A stretch of 64,000 nt of DNA from Nitrospira sp. Lineage in GTDB: Bacteria > Nitrospirota > Nitrospiria > Nitrospirales > Nitrospiraceae. The notes beneath the pieces are model-generated. The model ran no database searches. It was not told where the DNA came from and saw nothing but the letters and a program-made list of their open reading frames with translations. A program made the translations under genes and the position numbers. Location of the stretch: assembly GCA_018242725.1 (NCBI GenBank), contig JAFEBI010000001.1, positions 67,008 to 131,007 on the forward strand. The letters are read 5' to 3'. This document shows, in pieces, positions 24,539-42,891 of the stretch. Position 1 is the first letter of the stretch. The number at the start of each line of letters is the position of its first letter.

Positions 24539-25078
24539 CTACTCGGCAAGTAATGACTGGGGAGTTTCTGATGGGCTCAATGCGGTGTATCCCGAACGTG
24601 TTTGGATAAAGGCGGTCAAGCGTTTATCCTCTTGCGCTCTGCGTAGGAACTTGAATGCAATCCCGCGGGTACTGACGGAGCGAACAATGGCTGCCGCCTC
24701 GACCGGCGGCTCATCCTGGGCAAGGCTGATCTCGAGGTAAAAAATATCATCAACCCGCACAGGGGTCTTGCTCCGGATAATACAGCCCCCTACTGACATA
24801 TCCAAGACGGTGCCCTCCCCACGTACTCGTCCTCCGGAAAAGGAGAGAGAGAGCCTGACCGGAATACGCATGTGTTCCCGACGCTCAGTGAGCGGTGAGA
24901 CGCTCGTGAGACTCATGCGACGAGCGAGAAACCGGTGGTCACACCGTTGACACTGGAAGGGTGCCATCCACAGCAGCGAGGCAACAACTTCACGCAGCGA
25001 CTGCGCCCGCACACGAACTGCACCGTCCTGTTGACATTGAGGACACATGATCTGTCGCCCCATGATACTCACTGGCAT
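24539..25078 (-). CDS. Zinc-ribbon PilZ-domain protein
   Basis: A 179-residue protein. The N-terminus carries two Cys pairs, CPQCQQDG and CQRCDHRF (residues 12-50), suggesting a zinc ribbon. A PilZ domain follows (about 65-160) with the c-di-GMP-binding RxxxR (RREHMRIP) and DxSxxG (DMSVGGC) motifs complete. It should bind c-di-GMP; the output is unknown. It stands alone on the minus strand between lemA and the fumarate reductase genes. The diguanylate cyclase at 28.9-30.1 kb is a possible source of signal. Confidence 0.88.
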   Translation of the reverse strand: MPVSIMGRQIMCPQCQQDGAVRVRAQSLREVVASLLWMAPFQCQRCDHRFLARRMSLTSVSPLTERREHMRIPVRLSLSFSGGRVRGEGTVLDMSVGGCIIRSKTPVRVDDIFYLEISLAQDEPPVEAAAIVRSVSTRGIAFKFLRRAQEDKRLTAFIQTRSGYTALSPSETPQSLLAE

Positions 25079-28885: not shown

Positions 28886-30136
28886 TTATCTGATGTGGGC
28901 AGACGTCGACTCGCGAGGGGTGACTCGGCGGACCTGAAGTTCAAGCTGTTCGGAAGGATTAAGCCCCGGGACCAGCACATCCATCGCCATGACGCAGTTG
29001 CGGCCGCTTTCCTTCGCGGCGTACAGCGCTCTATCTGCTTGATCGATCAACTCCAGTGGAGCTTGGGCGCCAAATGCACTGGATGACACGCCGATACTCA
29101 CCGTCAGTGTCATGCCGGATACCATTCGCACACGGTTACCAGCTTCCGCGGCGACACGAGCTCGAAGACGTTCCGCCAAAACCGTCGCCTCGCCCAAGAT
29201 CGTTCGTGGGAACATCAGACAGAACTCTTCGCCTCCATAACGTCCGACCATATCCGTCAGCCGCAATCCAGACTGAAGGCAATCCGCGACAGCTTGGATC
29301 GCTTGATCCCCGACGGCATGCCCAAATCCATCGTTCACGCGCTTAAAATTGTCAATGTCGACCATGAGACAGCAGAGTTCACTCCCTTGTCCACGCCCCT
29401 CGGCAAACGCCGCCTCAAACTGGGCATAAAATGCGCGCCGATTGAGGCATCCTGTCAAGGCGTCACGTGAGGCCAGACGCACCAGCTCGCCATTTTGTCG
29501 TAGGACTTCGGTCTGTGCGGCCTCCAGGCTTGCGACTGTCCGCATCAGTGCCTCATTGAATTCCGTCAGCTGCCGGTTCGCCTGCTGAAGCGCCATGGTC
29601 CGCTCATCGACGAGCTTGCTCAACTCACTCACCTGGCCTGCAACCGTTCTCGCGAGGTCCCATTTCCGACACAGCGCAGTCGCGAGCTGCAACACCTCGA
29701 TGCTATTGAACGGCTTCTGGAGGATCAGCAACTTATCAGTTCGCCCAATTCGGTCTCTGATCTCATCCCACGGTTGGTCGGAATAGGCGGTACAGATCAC
29801 GACTTGTAACGCAGCATCTGCTCCCCAGAGACGCTCGATGGTCTCCAGCCCGTCCCAACCGGGCGGCATCCGCATATCCACAAAAGCCACCGCATATGGC
29901 TTCCCCTCTTTAACCGCCGTTTCAACTATGGTCAGCGCGGTAGCCCCTTGCTCTGCGCAAGTGACCGTAAACTGATCGTTGTTCGAAGCAGGATTGGACT
30001 CGCCGAATAAAGAGCTCCGTGCCTGCTCCAGAGCCTCCGATCCCATATACGGCCGTAGAATTTTCAGGAAATCATGGTGAATCGACACATTGTCGTCCAC
30101 GACCAGAATGCGCCGATTGATCTCGTCCCCTGTCAC
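28886..30136 (-). CDS. Response regulator diguanylate cyclase (REC-GGDEF)
   Basis: 416 residues from GTG 30136, chosen for its GGAGGAG ribosome binding site; the frame extends 18 codons further upstream into the previous gene. A receiver (RRILVVDDNVSIHHDF; phospho-Asp in [12 protein letters not shown]; Lys in LQKPFNSIEV) is followed by a coiled coil and a GGDEF domain with active-site GGEEF (GRYGGEEFCLMFP). The inhibitory site RLTD lies five residues before it. It should make c-di-GMP from two GTP when phosphorylated. It is the last gene of the five-gene signalling operon and its only recognisable output. Confidence 0.93.
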   Translation of the reverse strand: MTGDEINRRILVVDDNVSIHHDFLKILRPYMGSEALEQARSSLFGESNPASNNDQFTVTCAEQGATALTIVETAVKEGKPYAVAFVDMRMPPGWDGLETIERLWGADAALQVVICTAYSDQPWDEIRDRIGRTDKLLILQKPFNSIEVLQLATALCRKWDLARTVAGQVSELSKLVDERTMALQQANRQLTEFNEALMRTVASLEAAQTEVLRQNGELVRLASRDALTGCLNRRAFYAQFEAAFAEGRGQGSELCCLMVDIDNFKRVNDGFGHAVGDQAIQAVADCLQSGLRLTDMVGRYGGEEFCLMFPRTILGEATVLAERLRARVAAEAGNRVRMVSGMTLTVSIGVSSSAFGAQAPLELIDQADRALYAAKESGRNCVMAMDVLVPGLNPSEQLELQVRRVTPRESTSAHIR

Positions 30137-30171
30137 TCCACACTCCTCCGACAACTCTCGATCATGATGCC

Positions 30172-31431
30172 TTAACTCGCTTCGGCGCACAGCAGCTGAG
30201 CAGTTGGTTTCCTAAGCCGCATCATGCACCAAAATATCGAGCCTCGTCCGGGAATACTCTCAACCCCCGCTGTTCCGCCCATCATCTCAGCTAACTGCTT
30301 CACCATCGCCAAGCCGAGTCCGGGCCCGCCGAACTTGCGTGTGGTGCTGCCATCGGCTTGCGTGAAGGGTGTAAAGAGATTGGCTTGGCTCGCCGGTTCC
30401 ACACCAATTCCTGTATCCTGCACCTCCAGACACAACTCCGTCTGCTCAACGTCATCATCAACCACCGTCATGGAAACGGTCACCTGGCCTTGCGCGGTAA
30501 ATTTAATTGCGTTTCCAATGAGGTTCATGAGGATCTGGCGAATGCGTACCGGATCGCCAACATACTCGTGGCCGACGGCTTCGGATAGGATGGCCGTTAA
30601 CTGAAGCCCCTTGTTTCTCGCCTGCACCGAGAAGAGTTCCTGCGTGTCCGTCACAAGTTGACGAAGATCGAAGGAGATCTGCGCAAGCTTCAGCTTTCCG
30701 CCTCCAATTTTTGAAATATCCAGAATGTCATCGATGATCTGAATGAGTGTCTGACTGGACTTCTGCAACGTTTGCAGATACCGCCGCTGCTTGTCATTCA
30801 GTGGCGTTTGCATCAAGAGTTCGCTCATACCCAGAATCCCATTCATCGGCGTGTGAATTTCATGGCTCATGTTGGCCAAGAACTGTGACTTGGCAACATT
30901 GGCAGCCTCGGCGGCCTGCAGACGCTGGTGCGCCTGACGGGCCAAGTTCCACTTTGTCGTGAGCGACATTGCCAGTTGAGAGACTTCAACGCTGGAAAAA
31001 GGCTTTTGCAGGATCAGCAGGCGATCGTCAGGACCGACTCGCTCGATGATCTCTTCCCAAGAATGATCGCTGTACGCCGTGCAGATCACCGCCTGAATCT
31101 CTGGATCGACCGCCCAGAAATGTTCGATCGTCTCCAACCCGTCCCAGCCGGGAGGCATGCGCATATCCACAAACACCACGGCATAGGGTCGATCTTCCTG
31201 GAGCGCCTTCTGAACCAAGGCCAACGCAGCTTGCCCCTGATCTACGCAATCCAACTCGAACCGGATCAGCGGCTTCGGGCGTGGAGTGCCGCCAAAAACG
31301 GCTGCACGGATTTCGTCCAGATTGTGCGCCTCGTTCTCCGGCTGAAGAATTTTTCGAAAGTCATCGTGGATGAGCACATTGTCATCGATGACCAAAATCC
31401 GTCTATTTTCAGGATGTTTCATCAGCCTCAT
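30172..31431 (-). CDS. Receiver-histidine kinase (REC-HisKA-HATPase)
   Basis: A 419-residue cytosolic protein. The N-terminal receiver ([43 protein letters not shown]) belongs to the same type as its neighbours. A coiled coil leads to a HisKA domain whose H-box reads [11 protein letters not shown] (Arg replaced by His) and a HATPase_c domain with N, G1 (DTGIGVEP) and an altered G2 box [10 protein letters not shown] (Thr replaced by Pro). The kinase may still be active. ATG 31431 is used; ATG 31422 is an alternative. Genes lie 36 bases apart on both sides. Confidence 0.88.
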
Positions 31432-31467
31432 CGTCGCTCGAGCAAATCAGATGAACGGTCTTGTTCG

Positions 31468-33351
31468 TTAGGCAGCCCGCGACTCACCCGTCGGCAACCA
31501 CTGCTGCACCACATTGCGAATCTCTTTCAGACCCGCCGGCTTCGAGAGGAACCCATCCATGCCCGCAGCAAGGCAAGCCGCTTGATAGCTGCTGACAGCG
31601 TGGCCGGACAGCGCGATTACCGGAACGGGCTTTCCGTCGGATCCGGTCAATCGACATCTTCTAATTTCCCTACAGGCAGTTAATCCATCCATTTCAGGCA
31701 TCTCACAGTCCATGAGCACCAAGTCGTATTGGACACGCCTCATCGCCTCCAGCGCCTCCTTGCCCGTACTCACCACATCGGCTGACTCACCACAGAGATC
31801 CAGCATGCGTACGAAGACCTCTTGATTCGTTGAATTGTCCTCAGCCAGCAGAATACGTGCGCGGGGTCGTGGCTTTGAGGAGAGGCCACCGGGAGACTTC
31901 GTCACCTGCGTAAAACGTGTAACGGGCATGGCAGGTTGATCGGATGGCTGGTTCTCAACGACACTCAGGTCCTGAGCGCTCTGTTTCTGAAGGCGAACCG
32001 TAAACCAGAATGTTGAGCCTTGTCCTGGTGTGCTTGTAAGCCCAATATCACCGCCCATCAATCGGACAAGACGTTGCACGATGGCAAGTCCCAAACCCGT
32101 CCCTCCGTATCGCCGCGTGATCGAGGCATCCGCCTGGATAAAGGAGTCGAAGATGGTGTGCTGCGCCTCAAACGGAATGCCAATTCCGGTATCACACACC
32201 GTCATTTTGAAGAGGGCGCTATCAAGACGATCCTCGACACGGTCAATATGGATCAGGACACTACCACGCTCCGTAAACTTGACGGCATTACCTACGAGGT
32301 TCACCAGAATCTGCCTCAGTCTGACACCGTCTCCCCGCCATATGGCGGGGAGTTCGGGATCGATCTGGCATTCTAAGCTAACCCCCTTCCTTCGCGAAGG
32401 CTCATGAAACAGACCTATGACTCCCCGCACCGTTGCCACCAGGTCGAGCTTCGCGATGTGGAGGTCGAGCTTGCCTTCCTCCATCTTGGACAGATCAAGG
32501 ATGTCATTGATGATCTCAACCAGCTGTTCGCCGTTACTATGGATGGTCTGAACAAAGTACCGCTGCTGGTCGTTCAAGGGAGTCGAGAGCAACAGTTCAT
32601 TCATGCCGAGCATCCCGTTCATGGGAGTTCGGATTTCATGACTCATATGCGCCAAAAACTGCGACTTGGCCTGGTTAGCATTGTCCGCATCCACTTTGGC
32701 CTTTTTCAATGCCTCCACCGTTTTCTGCAGTTCGCTATTGCGCTGTTGAAGCTCGACCGTCCGTTCGGCCACCTGTTGTTCGAGGCGCTGGTTGGTCCCG
32801 AGAAGTTCCCGGTTGCGGGCATTGACCTGTGCAACGAGGTCTTCAATCTGTAACCGAACATCACGCCCCAACTCCCACTTGCGCGTCAATGCGGCGGCAA
32901 TCTGCTGGACCTCGATCGCGTCGAACGGTTTGCGCAAGATCAGCAAACGATCGCTCATACCCAACCGTGCCGCAATTTCTGCCCACGAATGGTCCGAATA
33001 GGCTGTGCAGATCACAACCTGAATGCGACCATCGACCTCCCAAAGTCGCTCTATCGTTTCCAGGCCATCCCATCCCGTCGGCATCCGCATATCGACGAAT
33101 GCCACGGCATAGGGGCGCCCCTCCTGCCTCGCCATCTGCACCAATGCGAGAGCCGCCTGTCCCTGAACCGCGTAATCCAACTCGAAGCAATCCAGCGCTT
33201 CCACAAGCGGCGCCCCACCAAACAAATCCTTGCGCGCGTGATTCAGATCTTTGTCTTCCGGTTGAGACTGAAGAATCCGCCGAAAATCTTCATGGATCGA
33301 CTGATTGTCGTCGACGATCAAGACTCGAGGATTCGTGCTGTGGTTATCCAT
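31468..33351 (-). CDS. Hybrid histidine kinase (REC-HisKA-HATPase-REC)
   Basis: A 627-residue cytosolic protein. The N-terminal receiver ([38 protein letters not shown]) is of the operon's shared type. A long coiled coil (about 165-235) precedes a canonical HisKA domain ([15 protein letters not shown]), a HATPase_c domain ([29 protein letters not shown]) and a second, conventional receiver ([34 protein letters not shown]). Signal reception must be by phosphotransfer into the first receiver because there is no sensory or membrane domain. Confidence 0.92.
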
Positions 33352-33390
33352 ATGAATGAATACCGGCTCCCCATCGAGAGCGTCTCCCCT

Positions 33391-34266
33391 TCACGGTTGA
33401 TCGCTTCCTTCGGTCTCTTGTCTTCGGCTGGCCAAGAACTCATGCATATCCTTGATCAAGGAGAGCAGATCCTGTGCGCAATGCCCAAGAGTCGACGCAT
33501 GCTGACGCTGGACAGGATTCAGAGGGCTATCGAGCAACAGGGTGACTTTCGCTACTAACTCATTCATCGGTGTCAGAATCTCATGACTCATGATCGCGAG
33601 AAACTCTTCCTTCTGGCGAAGCATTGCCTCGACCGGTTCCTCTGAATCAGCAGAGTCGGATCCGGTTATTCGACTGGCAATTTGCTCCTGAAGTCGTTGA
33701 TTGATTGCGCGTACGTCGGTCGTCCGTTGACTCACATTCTCGGCCAACCCCTCAATCTGTTGCTTCACCGCGCGAGCCAGATTCCATTTCTTGGTCAAGG
33801 CATTGGCCATTTGGACGACCTCGACACTGTTGAACGGTTTCATGAGAATGAGCAACTTGTCGGTATCACCGATACGACGACTGACGTCTTCCCATGGATG
33901 GTCAGAATAGGCCGAACAGATGACGATGTGGATTTCTGGATCGACATACCAAAGATGCTCGACGGTCTCGAGCCCGTCCCAGCCAGGAGGCATACGCATA
34001 TCCACGAAGGCCATCGCATAGGGCATCCCGCTCTGACGAGCCGTCTGAACAAGCCCGAATCCCTCGCGGCCTTGAGTGGCAAACTCCAGTTCATACGACA
34101 CATGCGTGGGAAGGGTCGGGGTCTCCCCAAACAGGGCCGCCCGTGCGTGGTCCAGTGCTCCCGATTCTATCGGCGGGGACAAGATTTTCCTGAAGTCCTC
34201 GTGAATACTGACATTGTCGTCGATGACGAGAATCCGACGGTTGATGACATCTCCATTGACGGTCAT
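33391..34266 (-). CDS. Receiver protein with DHp-like helix pair and no ATPase domain
   Basis: A 291-residue protein. The receiver ([42 protein letters not shown]) fills the first 150 residues, followed by a coiled coil. A HisKA-type H-box (IMSHEILTPMNE) and dimerisation helices come next. The protein then ends without any HATPase_c domain, and the reading frame is not interrupted by an obvious mutation. It could be a phosphotransfer protein in the manner of a histidine phosphotransferase, or a decayed kinase. ATG overlaps the stop of the upstream kinase (ATGA), so the two are coupled. Confidence 0.82.
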   Translation of the reverse strand: MTVNGDVINRRILVIDDNVSIHEDFRKILSPPIESGALDHARAALFGETPTLPTHVSYELEFATQGREGFGLVQTARQSGMPYAMAFVDMRMPPGWDGLETVEHLWYVDPEIHIVICSAYSDHPWEDVSRRIGDTDKLLILMKPFNSVEVVQMANALTKKWNLARAVKQQIEGLAENVSQRTTDVRAINQRLQEQIASRITGSDSADSEEPVEAMLRQKEEFLAIMSHEILTPMNELVAKVTLLLDSPLNPVQRQHASTLGHCAQDLLSLIKDMHEFLASRRQETEGSDQP

Positions 34267-36173
34267 GCCGCCGCCTCAACAAGGACCAACGGCAGATCCA
34301 ATGTGAACGTCGCACCCTGTCCTTCACCGGCACTTTGCACCTGCAAGGCGCCGCCAAGATTCTTTGCCACAATGGCGGAACTATGCAATCCAAGCCCATG
34401 GCCGGCTTTTCGTGTGGTAAAACCCTGCGCAAAGAGTTTGGAGAGGTTCTCTGCCTTGATTCCCCCGCCCGTGTCGATCACTTCCAATCGTGCGAAGGCG
34501 CTGCCGGTCGGCACGCCAATCCGCAACGTAAGACAGCGCGTGCTCTTCGGGTACTCGACCATGGCGTTCTTGGCATTCGTGATGAGATTCACTAGTACCT
34601 GTAATACCTGATGCCGATCCGTCATAATCGTTGAGATGGGACGATATTCCCGCACCACTTGGATGTGATACTTCTCCGGCTCAGGCATCGCCATGACCAG
34701 GGCCTGTTCCATCATGTCTTCGACCGAGACAGGCTCCCGAATACTCCCCGCACGTGCAATATCTTGCTGCGACATGATTACTTGCTTGATGTGATCAACT
34801 TTTTTAACCAGCGAGTCGAGCTCCAGTTGGATGGTCTGATGGCTTCCACTAAGCGACTCAGCGACCAACCCCAGATAAGAAGGAATCTGCTTCCCCTTTG
34901 GATCAGCCGTCAGAAAGGATTGCAGATTGTCCTGATGCTCGTTGAACAGCGCCGCGATGCGGCAGACATCGCCCACCATCGGTTTCTTGAGCGTCTTGAG
35001 CAAGGTATCCGTCGAGACGTTGATGCTGTTGAGTACATTGCCGACATTGTGAAGCACACTCGACGCAACATCAGCCATACCCGCTTGGCGCGAGGCATTC
35101 ATCAACTGTTGATACAATTTTTCCTTTTCGGCTTCGGCTTTTTTTCGGTGATCCATCTCGATGTGCAGATTGGTATTCGTCACCTCGAGTTCCTGGTTCT
35201 TTTGGAGAATCTGAACACGGGAGACCTCCAGCTCATTGTTGGCCTCCTTGAGTTGTGAATTAGCTCGATCCAGTTCAGTGACGTCGTGAAATGAGACGAG
35301 AGCGCCTCGCACCGTAGACCCATCATCCATGATTGGGACTGTCGTCACGATGAACTTTTGAAAGGCTCCCCCCACCCCGTGCAAGACGAGTGGAATATTG
35401 TCTTGCGGTTGCTTATCCATAATCGCCCTGGTCCAGGGATAAACGGTCGGAGATTCACCGGACGCTGCAACCTTCCAGTCAATCGCGCCAAGGTCGGTGC
35501 CGATCAGTGCGGTCAAGGGCTTCCCTACCGAACGACTGAATGTTTCATTGGTCAGAACGATCAGGTCCCGGGTGTCGATCATCACCACACCCTGAGTGAG
35601 TGCATCGAGTGCGGCTTTGACTCGCGTTGGAACAATGCCGGATGGGTCTAATTGTCGAAGGGTGCGTTTCATAAAGACAAGATAGCCAATAAACCCCATC
35701 ACACTGACGAAGGTGAGGAAACGCATCCATGGATCGTTCAGAAATCGCTCCATCTCCGACACCTCGGCCTTGCGAAACGCGATTTGAAGTACCCCCCACG
35801 ACTGGTCTCCGGCAAAGATCGGAACTTGGATAAATTCCAGTGATGATGCACCACCGGATGGTGGTACCCAGATGTGGATGTGGTCACCAATCTGCGCAAG
35901 AACCTTTCCGCCTTGAAGAACCAGGGCCAACGAACGGATCTCAGGATTCCGCTGGACAAACCGTGCCATCGACAGTTTGATGGTTTCAATCTGCTGATGC
36001 TCCGCCAACGCAGAGTATTGAACTGCCAAGGCTTCAGCCACGTCGCGACGATATTCAAAATCTTGGCGATCGTGGTTAGGGACTAGATCAACCAAGGCAT
36101 CACCCGCCAGCATGACGCTGAGCGTCAGACTCGTGAGACCAAAGCTGATCCAGACCAAAGGACTCACATTCAT
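34263..36173 (-). CDS. Membrane sensor histidine kinase with HNVGN-type H-box
   Basis: A 636-residue protein. Helix 1 (about 6-28) and helix 2 (about 172-192) enclose a periplasmic sensor of about 145 residues. A PAS domain (about 205-320) and a coiled coil follow. The dimerisation helix has the sequence SSVLHNVGNVLNSIN instead of the SHEIRTP form. HATPase_c is intact (NLITNAKNAM; DTGGGI; HGLGLHSSAIVAKNLGG). It has no receiver. As first gene of the operon, and the only one with a membrane sensor, it is the likely phosphate source for the four receiver proteins behind it. The ligand is unknown. Confidence 0.9.
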   Translation of the reverse strand: MNVSPLVWISFGLTSLTLSVMLAGDALVDLVPNHDRQDFEYRRDVAEALAVQYSALAEHQQIETIKLSMARFVQRNPEIRSLALVLQGGKVLAQIGDHIHIWVPPSGGASSLEFIQVPIFAGDQSWGVLQIAFRKAEVSEMERFLNDPWMRFLTFVSVMGFIGYLVFMKRTLRQLDPSGIVPTRVKAALDALTQGVVMIDTRDLIVLTNETFSRSVGKPLTALIGTDLGAIDWKVAASGESPTVYPWTRAIMDKQPQDNIPLVLHGVGGAFQKFIVTTVPIMDDGSTVRGALVSFHDVTELDRANSQLKEANNELEVSRVQILQKNQELEVTNTNLHIEMDHRKKAEAEKEKLYQQLMNASRQAGMADVASSVLHNVGNVLNSINVSTDTLLKTLKKPMVGDVCRIAALFNEHQDNLQSFLTADPKGKQIPSYLGLVAESLSGSHQTIQLELDSLVKKVDHIKQVIMSQQDIARAGSIREPVSVEDMMEQALVMAMPEPEKYHIQVVREYRPISTIMTDRHQVLQVLVNLITNAKNAMVEYPKSTRCLTLRIGVPTGSAFARLEVIDTGGGIKAENLSKLFAQGFTTRKAGHGLGLHSSAIVAKNLGGALQVQSAGEGQGATFTLDLPLVLVEAAA

Positions 36174-40422: not shown

Positions 40423-42891
40423 TTATTTCGTAATGTCCCGGACACAGCGGAACCCAAGAAAGTCATGCCGTGCTGTGGCTGAACGCCTATACCTGATTGC
40501 AGATCGCATCCTGCCAGAGGCATCGCCCCAAGCCCCCCCACGGACTACCCGATGTTGCCCGCTGGAAGGCCCCTTTGGATTACTCATCGAACGCTGCTCG
40601 TACCGATAATAGTTCTCGTCATACCAGTCGGCTGTCCACTCCCAGACATTACCAGCCATGTCGTACGCACCATAGGGACTCCTCCCATCTTTATACGACC
40701 CCACGTTGGTGAGCACCTCATAGTTGTTGAAATCGGAACCGCGGTCATAATTCGCCAGTTGATGGTTAGGTGCCACATTTCCCCAAGGATATAAACGTTG
40801 ATCGGTTCCACGCGCTGCTTTCTCCCACTCAGCTTCGGTAGGTAGACGTTTTCCTGCCCATGAGCAATAGGCGGTAGCATCGTACCAGTCGACTCCAATA
40901 ATTGGCTTTTCCCCATGCCGCTCAAGAACTTGTTTAGACCAGTACGCTGATGCAACCCGGTTCGTCTTCTGTAAGAATATGGCGTACCGGGTAGTCGTCA
41001 CTTCATATTGATCCAAATAGTAGGCATCGAGTTCTACCGAGTGGCTCGGCTTTTCGGCTTCTTGAGCACTCTTGTCATCTTCTTTCGATCCCATCATGAA
41101 CTTTCCCGCCGGCACAAGCACCATCGTCGCGCCGTCTTCCCCTGTAGTTGTTGAAAGATAGAACTTACTATCTTCTAATGAATGAAATGATTCAGATTCA
41201 CCTGTCTGTTTTGGAAGCGTCAGTGCCTCAGTTTCTGTGGCTTTCTTTGCAGGTTGTGCAGCGCGCCTCATGACATCCACGAATTTCTCTTCCCCCTGCA
41301 CTTTAGTATCAGCAACAGCATGTGCTTCCTGGTTCATAACAGGTTTTGCTGGCGTTACTTTCACAGTCAACTTATCAGACGGCTTAGGCTGTGGGGCTGG
41401 CGTGATTACCTCACTCCGAGTGGTCGGCGGTTGCACTGGAGGCTGATATTGCGCCACCTCTCTTGGCCCAGGCGAAGGACTCTGCAAAAAAATCATGAAA
41501 TAGACCAGCGTTCCCATCACAACGAGCAGACCAAGTCCAATGAGGCGGTATGGAAAGGGGGCGGATGGTTGCCCCATTTCTGTCAATTCGTTCAAGCGGT
41601 CTGCGCCAACTGGTGTAAACTCTGAATCAACTTCTGACCGCTCAGTAGCTCCCGCAAACAAGGGAGACCCTACCGATGAGTCTTGTGACATAGCCCCACT
41701 CATAGCTGTAGTCAACTGCTGTTCATGTCGCTCTGGCTCTTCGCCCACCTCAGCAGCCTCAGGGAGCGTCGCACGGTTTACGCTGATCAGGTATGTCTTA
41801 GGACTACCGTGCTGGCCAATCACGGTGATTTCTACTTCGGTACTCGATCCGGCAGGACCTAGAGAAATAGCACAGTCTTGACCCGAACGACTTCCCTCTC
41901 CATTGACCGTCAGACTGGAATTGTCATCCTGAGGCATTGGCGTCACGGCGACGCTGGTCACGCTGTCACCGACGTTCACCGTATAGGCTGTCCGGCTTGC
42001 ACTAAATGGAGGCGACAGCGTGCCAGGCGAGACGCTTAAATTCTGCAAGTTATTGTTCCCGCTAAGAGCGGCACGAGACACGTTCACCGTGTAGGTCTTT
42101 TGTGTACCACCAGGTGCGGTCACCCAGATAGCCACACTGGTGGTTGTCCCTGGCCCACTCAGATGAATGGTTGTTTGACCAGTAGCGATACCGGATCCAG
42201 CGTATACATCACCTGACAATACGGCGTTCGGATCCGACTTGGTTGCCGAGATACTCACATCCGCCACATTACTACCGACATTCAGCGTGTAATTGAGGAT
42301 GTTGGCTGAGAAAACAGGAGACAATGAACCTTGTGAAACGGTCAATGCCGATAGGTTTTTGTTCACCCCATGGACAACACGAACCTGTTCTCCATCGTCT
42401 GCTGCCTTTGACCGGGTCGATAATTCAGAGGTCAGGCTCGCTGCTGGCTCATGCAGCAGGTGGGGCACCGGAGGTGGGTGAACAACCGGGGTCACTGGAG
42501 CGCCAATGACCCCCATCAGATCGTCGAGAAATTGCGCGAAGCCCGCATGCTCCTGCTCCGGTTGCCAATCTATTAAATAAGCAACTTGCAGATGTTCAAA
42601 TTCGAGTGGAATTTCCACCTCGTCCAGTAGCATTACTGGGATCAAGACATTTCGACGCAATCCTCTCTTCGCTTCATTCTTGACGAATTGGGACTTCACT
42701 GAGTTCTTGGTCCATACGACCACTACCGACTTAGCCGTCTTTAAGGCCTTCTCGATAACCTCTTCATACGACTGGCCTGCGGGAATACGCACATCCCACC
42801 AGACAGACCAGCCCTTCCTCTCAAGGACATGAGCCAAAAGTTTGACGAGTGGTTTGTCTTCCCTGGCGTAACTGATGAAGATATCACTCAT
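40423..42891 (-). CDS. TIR / cadherin-like / FGE-type fusion protein
   Basis: An 822-residue, apparently unique architecture. A TIR domain (1-140; DIFISYAREDKPLVKLL; candidate catalytic Glu73 in FVKNEAKRG) is followed by two cadherin-like beta-sandwich repeats (about 173-375; LSPVFSANILNYTLNVGSN and LSPPFSASRTAYTVNVGDS), a linker, one membrane helix (about 455-480; LIGLGLLVVMGTLVYFMIF) and a Pro-rich stretch. A formylglycine-generating-enzyme-like (SUMF1/EgtB/PvdO) domain ends it (about 585-820; MVLVPAGKFMMGS, WEKAARGTDQRLYPWGN, GNVWEWTADWYDE, GFRCVRD). The FGE part lacks the catalytic Cys in the RMRSAIRYRR segment. TIR domains can be NADases. No ribosome binding site is seen. Confidence 0.85.
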   Translation of the reverse strand: MSDIFISYAREDKPLVKLLAHVLERKGWSVWWDVRIPAGQSYEEVIEKALKTAKSVVVVWTKNSVKSQFVKNEAKRGLRRNVLIPVMLLDEVEIPLEFEHLQVAYLIDWQPEQEHAGFAQFLDDLMGVIGAPVTPVVHPPPVPHLLHEPAASLTSELSTRSKAADDGEQVRVVHGVNKNLSALTVSQGSLSPVFSANILNYTLNVGSNVADVSISATKSDPNAVLSGDVYAGSGIATGQTTIHLSGPGTTTSVAIWVTAPGGTQKTYTVNVSRAALSGNNNLQNLSVSPGTLSPPFSASRTAYTVNVGDSVTSVAVTPMPQDDNSSLTVNGEGSRSGQDCAISLGPAGSSTEVEITVIGQHGSPKTYLISVNRATLPEAAEVGEEPERHEQQLTTAMSGAMSQDSSVGSPLFAGATERSEVDSEFTPVGADRLNELTEMGQPSAPFPYRLIGLGLLVVMGTLVYFMIFLQSPSPGPREVAQYQPPVQPPTTRSEVITPAPQPKPSDKLTVKVTPAKPVMNQEAHAVADTKVQGEEKFVDVMRRAAQPAKKATETEALTLPKQTGESESFHSLEDSKFYLSTTTGEDGATMVLVPAGKFMMGSKEDDKSAQEAEKPSHSVELDAYYLDQYEVTTTRYAIFLQKTNRVASAYWSKQVLERHGEKPIIGVDWYDATAYCSWAGKRLPTEAEWEKAARGTDQRLYPWGNVAPNHQLANYDRGSDFNNYEVLTNVGSYKDGRSPYGAYDMAGNVWEWTADWYDENYYRYEQRSMSNPKGPSSGQHRVVRGGAWGDASGRMRSAIRYRRSATARHDFLGFRCVRDITK

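Follow-up and report, generated by a model that had tools for sequence, protein, structure and literature searches.

A Nitrospira operon with four related receivers behind one atypical sensor kinase

Introduction

Whether a single sensor kinase can serve, in parallel, four receivers copied from one another, or instead opens a serial phosphate chain, is the question raised by a five-gene operon of Nitrospira sp. (assembly GCA_018242725.1). The operon lies on the minus strand between sdhC and lpxC, within a stretch of 64,000 nucleotides referred to here as the window (contig JAFEBI010000001.1, positions 67,008 to 131,007). Gene 1 encodes a sensor histidine kinase, and genes 2 to 5 encode proteins that begin with a common N-terminal receiver type, which we name REC*. 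As judged from the sequences, the operon would distribute a signal: gene 1 would phosphorylate all four REC* domains and thus drive the synthesis of cyclic dimeric guanosine monophosphate (c-di-GMP), two receiver-controlled kinases and the product of gene 2. We assign this reading a probability of about 0.62.

The coordinates were re-read and agree with a preliminary description of the locus, which had reported five genes in the same direction separated, from gene 1 to gene 5, by gaps of -4, 39, 36 and 35 bases (Table 1). The start of gene 5 is a GTG at 30136; a longer mechanical open reading frame (to 30190) would run into gene 4. A scan for promoters and terminators gave values near the shuffled expectation and nothing usable within the operon.

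A common receiver with four outputs

Pfam assigns REC and HisKA domains to gene 2, where HATPase is absent; REC, HisKA, HATPase and a second REC to gene 3; REC, HisKA and HATPase to gene 4; and REC and GGDEF to gene 5. The first receivers of these proteins are 55-61% identical in pairwise comparison, in agreement with the initial assignment of one receiver type to four different outputs. A profile built from the four REC* domains scores each of them at >300 bits, whereas the next best receiver of the genome reaches 22 bits; among the 111 receiver matches found by Pfam in the genome, only these four fit the profile. The four are thus closer to each other than to any other receiver of the genome, and their resemblance and clustering are far beyond chance.

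REC* has 73 residues between the acidic pair and the phospho-Asp, which we estimate as an insertion of about 28 residues relative to ordinary receivers. This enlarged spacing explains why the receivers that open genes 2, 4 and 5 score only 31-33 bits against the Pfam REC model (cut-off 30.2). The phospho-acceptor Asp, the Lys and the Thr/Ser are conserved in REC* of all four slots. Within each slot, REC* and the output domain stand at an almost fixed distance (66, 78, 28 and 65 residues for genes 2, 3, 4 and 5), as expected if a helix carries the signal. One heptad register common to all outputs was considered and was not seen: the slots, each of constant spacing (28 in gene 4 and 78 in gene 3), do not fall into a single register.

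Phylogenetic trees were computed for 162 REC* sequences and, with more care, for 63; the scan of the collection retained the best 80 matches, and more distant receivers are under-sampled. Each operon position forms its own clade across Nitrospira species, with bootstrap values of 100, 100, 97 and 100 for genes 2, 3, 4 and 5. Together the four positions form one clade (96/86.5), apart from the REC* domains of other Nitrospirales, Nitrospinota, Burkholderiales, Verrucomicrobia, Planctomycetes and Acidobacteria. This topology places the duplications at a time before these Nitrospira species diverged, with the copies inherited in place since then. The genome profile search and the clade support bear out the earlier proposal that one receiver type was duplicated in tandem and fitted with different outputs.

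The sensor kinase and its pairing with REC*

The product of gene 1 contains PAS and HATPase_c domains, and its hydrophobic maxima at residues ~5-25 and ~148-168 enclose an extracytoplasmic domain of ~115 residues. It gave no match to Pfam HisKA (PF00512) or to any receiver model, and thus corresponds to the receiver-less membrane sensor kinase first described. The H-box reads HNVGN and is invariant in all 22 aligned orthologues (63-92% identity); the same box occurs in the REC*-linked kinases of other phyla. AlphaFold modelled the products of genes 1 and 2 with moderate confidence (mean predicted local distance difference test scores of 68.5 and 73.0), with a long low-confidence stretch at residues 360-476 of gene 1, around and after the His helix. 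The best PDB matches to these models are ordinary receivers and generic kinases.

Gene 1 orthologues were found in 30 genomes of the genus, and REC* is present in every one of them (30/30). Outside Nitrospira, REC* accompanies HNVGN kinases in at least five other phyla, so that the receiver type is not peculiar to the operon. There, the HNVGN kinase gene stands directly in front of that of REC*, often with a 4-base stop/start overlap, and kinase and receiver therefore look like a dedicated pair. In other Nitrospirales (L081-L083, L085, L088-L090, L092, L095, L097, L098, L103, L109, L113), a stand-alone REC* of 187 residues lies amid several HNVGN-related kinase genes. These loci hold many kinases for one or few receivers, the reverse of the ratio in the Nitrospira operon.

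The alpha-1 positions that set kinase specificity in other receivers, placed by homology according to the RR468 numbering, are I-D-F-I with hardly any exception throughout the REC* groups, including all four slots of the operon. Among 22 ordinary receivers of the genome, none has this combination. Such uniformity supports the recognition of all four REC* domains by one kinase class.

Output modules

The protein encoded by gene 2 has the sequence hallmarks of a histidine phosphotransferase, namely a conserved phospho-accepting His in a dimerization and histidine phosphotransfer (DHp) domain and no catalytic ATP-binding (CA) domain. The orthologues share the CA-less form, and the His is kept in 31 of 32, also in operons that lack genes 3 and 4; it is therefore not there merely for service by those kinases. 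Mean conservation among the orthologues is 0.81 in the DHp domain versus 0.65 in the linker. In 7 of the 32, another residue stands in place of the Thr that in many cases supports phosphatase activity, which argues against a phosphatase as the general role. From these features, gene 2 is most likely a partner for histidine phosphotransfer or phosphate buffering.

Genes 3 and 4 each place a receiver N-terminal to a complete DHp-CA core in a single chain, the architecture of Rec-controlled kinases of the LvrB type, and their H, N, G1, F and G2 boxes are conserved with few exceptions among orthologues. Gene 4 of the window reads GGPGLGL where most orthologues have GGTGLGL. The gene 4 core is 57% and 54% identical to two other kinases of the genome versus 49% to the gene 3 core, and the two cores may come from different sources; a common clade of both is not rejected (approximately unbiased test, p 0.23).

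Gene 5 has the features of a diguanylate cyclase of the REC-GGDEF type, with the GGEEF active site, the RxxD I-site and the phospho-acceptor receiver all intact. These residues favour the c-di-GMP output that had been predicted for the operon. Its score against the NCBIfam PleD model (NF007135) is 170.5 bits, below the curated cut-off of 474.

Conservation in Nitrospira

Of 79 genomes of the genus, 37 carry REC*, in most cases between lpxC and sdhC, and the flanking lpxC and sdhCAB-PilZ-LemA genes are the same in most loci. The genes of the operon are linked across Nitrospira, and the case of their being unlinked in all relatives did not occur. All five genes occur together in 13 of the examined loci, among them that of the window, and one genome carries the operon twice (L045/L054). 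Reduced versions consist of the kinase with gene 2 and the GGDEF gene (L049, L056, L059, L061, L062), the kinase with genes 2 and 4 and no GGDEF gene (L065-L067), the kinase with genes 2, 4 and 5 (L072), or the kinase with the GGDEF gene (L073). In genomes devoid of the operon, lpxC directly adjoins sdhC (L161, L164, L167), and in one genome a GGDEF remnant alone is left at the site (L165, G082). The empty sites and the remnant point to loss after ancestral presence.

Proposed function and alternatives

In the distribution that we favour, gene 1 would sense a signal at the membrane, autophosphorylate on the His of the HNVGN box and hand the phosphate to REC*, the one receiver type it would recognise. 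The four REC* copies would have retained their docking face and acquired different outputs before the radiation of these Nitrospira lineages. Phosphorylated REC* would then activate c-di-GMP synthesis by gene 5, switch the kinase activity of genes 3 and 4 in the LvrB manner, so that these feed receivers elsewhere, and control the CA-less DHp of gene 2.

Distribution is the best-supported reading when set against a multi-step relay, in which gene 1 would phosphorylate one REC* and genes 2 to 4 would act in series, with the kinase and second receiver of gene 3 and the DHp of gene 2 in place of an Hpt domain, to reach the GGDEF protein. The phospho-His that gene 2 keeps without a CA domain and the second receiver of gene 3 fit such a chain. 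By contrast, reduced operons limited to gene 1, gene 2 and the GGDEF gene (L056, L059, L062), or to genes 1, 2 and 4 without a GGDEF gene (L065-L067), show that a fixed phosphate chain is not required, and the GGDEF protein bears the same REC* and is reachable directly. We consider the relay unlikely. The term phosphorelay, as first applied to the operon, is not established: the operon encodes no Hpt, and gene 2 is conserved even in operons devoid of genes 3 and 4. Less plausible still is a decaying cluster of no coherent function with gene 2 as a truncated kinase. In its favour are the frequent losses, with about half of the genus devoid of REC*, the GGDEF remnant and gene 4, which is broken in L053; yet the motifs are essentially all intact in the window copy, and the CA-less form, the more conserved DHp and the retained His of gene 2 are common to its orthologues, so that decay is very improbable.

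Several observations weigh against distribution by gene 1. The same genome encodes a second, full-length HNVGN kinase, 44% identical to gene 1 (G000 contig 23, 15257-17161; L159 10249-12174), which has no neighbouring receiver gene and may act on the same receivers. The single sensor of the preliminary description thus holds for the operon and is unproven for the cell. At the operon site of G039 (L172), genes 1 and 2 are absent, and REC*-HK-REC (HK, histidine kinase) and REC*-GGDEF are kept; REC* receivers can therefore persist without gene 1. The I-D-F-I docking face is also found in REC* of other phyla, which makes it evidence for recognition of the class and not for fan-out within the operon. 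These data leave some room for unlinked branches, in which gene 1 serves only the translationally coupled gene 2, or gene 5, other kinases such as the orphan HNVGN kinase serve the remaining REC* domains, and the clustering results incidentally from tandem duplication. The separate clade of each REC* and the genomes with a partial gene set are in line with this alternative. It is nonetheless at odds with the identical docking residues in all four slots, and a homologue of the orphan kinase also occurs in G006, a genome without REC*, which indicates that this kinase is not tied to REC*. We regard unlinked branches as improbable, much as we do the relay. G039 further carries, far from the operon site (L172, L173), an HNVGN kinase paralogue that has a REC*-HK-REC of its own, and offers a natural test of receiver sharing.

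A broader and more speculative proposal is that HNVGN kinases and insertion-bearing REC* domains make up a separate, widespread class with a private docking interface, formed by extra segments on both partners. In Nitrospira the class would have expanded to a one-to-four distributor, where the receiver-bearing CA-less DHp protein would act as an allosterically gated histidine phosphotransferase. We put this forward tentatively, as possible but doubtful.

Relation to known systems

The module types of the operon are all known. In the literature searched, which left most subscription journals outside its coverage, we found no description of the layout, as had been surmised, or of the HNVGN motif. 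Spo0B and ChpT are DHp phosphotransferases with no CA domain or a pseudo-CA domain. Like them, gene 2 has a DHp with a phospho-His incapable of its own use of ATP; in contrast to them, it is joined to a receiver and retains no trace of a CA domain, and its phosphotransfer is a proposal. Gene 5 joins a receiver to a GGDEF domain with an I-site, as do the proteins of the PleD/WspR class, but carries REC* with its insertion and falls below the PleD cut-off.

In Leptospira, the Rec-controlled histidine kinase LvrB, a solved precedent for kinases under receiver control, is activated by phosphorylation of its own Rec (PMC13269768). In the LvrA-LvrB-LvrC system, an upstream kinase activates a kinase governed by an N-terminal receiver, with the domain order of gene 4 and of the first part of gene 3 (PMC13269768). 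That system has one Rec-controlled kinase and an anti-sigma-factor output, whereas the operon has four paralogous insertion-bearing receivers, a GGDEF output and a CA-less DHp protein. The HnoX-HnoK-HnoB-HnoD system of Shewanella and Vibrio likewise ties one kinase to c-di-GMP metabolism and to more than one output partner protein (PMC8846402), but it uses a phosphodiesterase output and a separate haem-protein sensor, and no receiver-controlled kinases are described there.

The operon is a natural example, well preserved, of one receiver that was copied four times, took on different outputs and stayed behind one kinase with its docking face unchanged, and it bears on how two-component networks branch without cross-talk. 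In a genus that matters for nitrification, the sensor and the cyclase may set c-di-GMP and, through it, perhaps attachment and the growth of flocs or biofilms. A receiver-DHp protein that lacks an ATP-binding domain is an oddity open to direct testing.

Features and neighbouring genes

Table 1. Positions of the operon genes, their domains and one neighbouring gene in the window
Feature	Position	Strand	Description
Gene 1	34263..36173	-	636 residues; membrane sensor histidine kinase, PAS + atypical HNVGN DHp + HATPase, receiver-less
HNVGN box (His375) of gene 1	35037..35051	-	Alignment of orthologues and kinases of other phyla
Gene 2	33391..34266	-	291 residues; REC* + DHp (HisKA), without ATP-binding domain
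REC* of gene 2	33772..34242	-	
Orphan DHp of gene 2, conserved phospho-His (SHEILTP)	33436..33615	-	Pfam and alignment
Gene 3	31468..33351	-	627 residues; hybrid kinase REC*-DHp-CA-REC
REC* of gene 3	32863..33330	-	
Second, ordinary receiver of gene 3	31507..31854	-	Pfam
Gene 4	30172..31431	-	419 residues; receiver-controlled kinase by domain order, REC*-DHp-CA
REC* of gene 4	30937..31407	-	
Gene 5	28886..30136	-	416 residues; REC*-GGDEF diguanylate cyclase, GGEEF active site, RLTD I-site, GTG start
REC* of gene 5	29648..30118	-	
PilZ-domain protein	24539..25078	-	Neighbour beyond sdhCAB, outside operon membership

The PilZ-domain protein is a candidate c-di-GMP receptor. It was considered as a sixth member of the operon and rejected, since 77 of the 79 genomes have a homologue whether or not they carry the operon, which makes it a core gene of Nitrospira. 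In five loci (L059, L062, L063, L074, L084) the PilZ gene follows REC*-GGDEF with no sdhCAB between them, at a distance of 68 base pairs in two, a pattern that insertion or loss of sdhCAB would produce. A link with complete ammonia oxidation was likewise discarded: the genomes show every combination of amoA and REC*, and that of the window yielded no amoA.

Elsewhere in the window, positions 40423-42891 encode a protein of 822 residues that combines TIR_2, cadherin-like and FGE-sulfatase domains, an unusual combination with a possible role in defence or signalling. In G006, an open frame of 2511 residues (L160, 1-7536) ends in an sdhB-like part where sdhCA is expected, and represents a candidate fusion, a chance frame or an assembly artefact.

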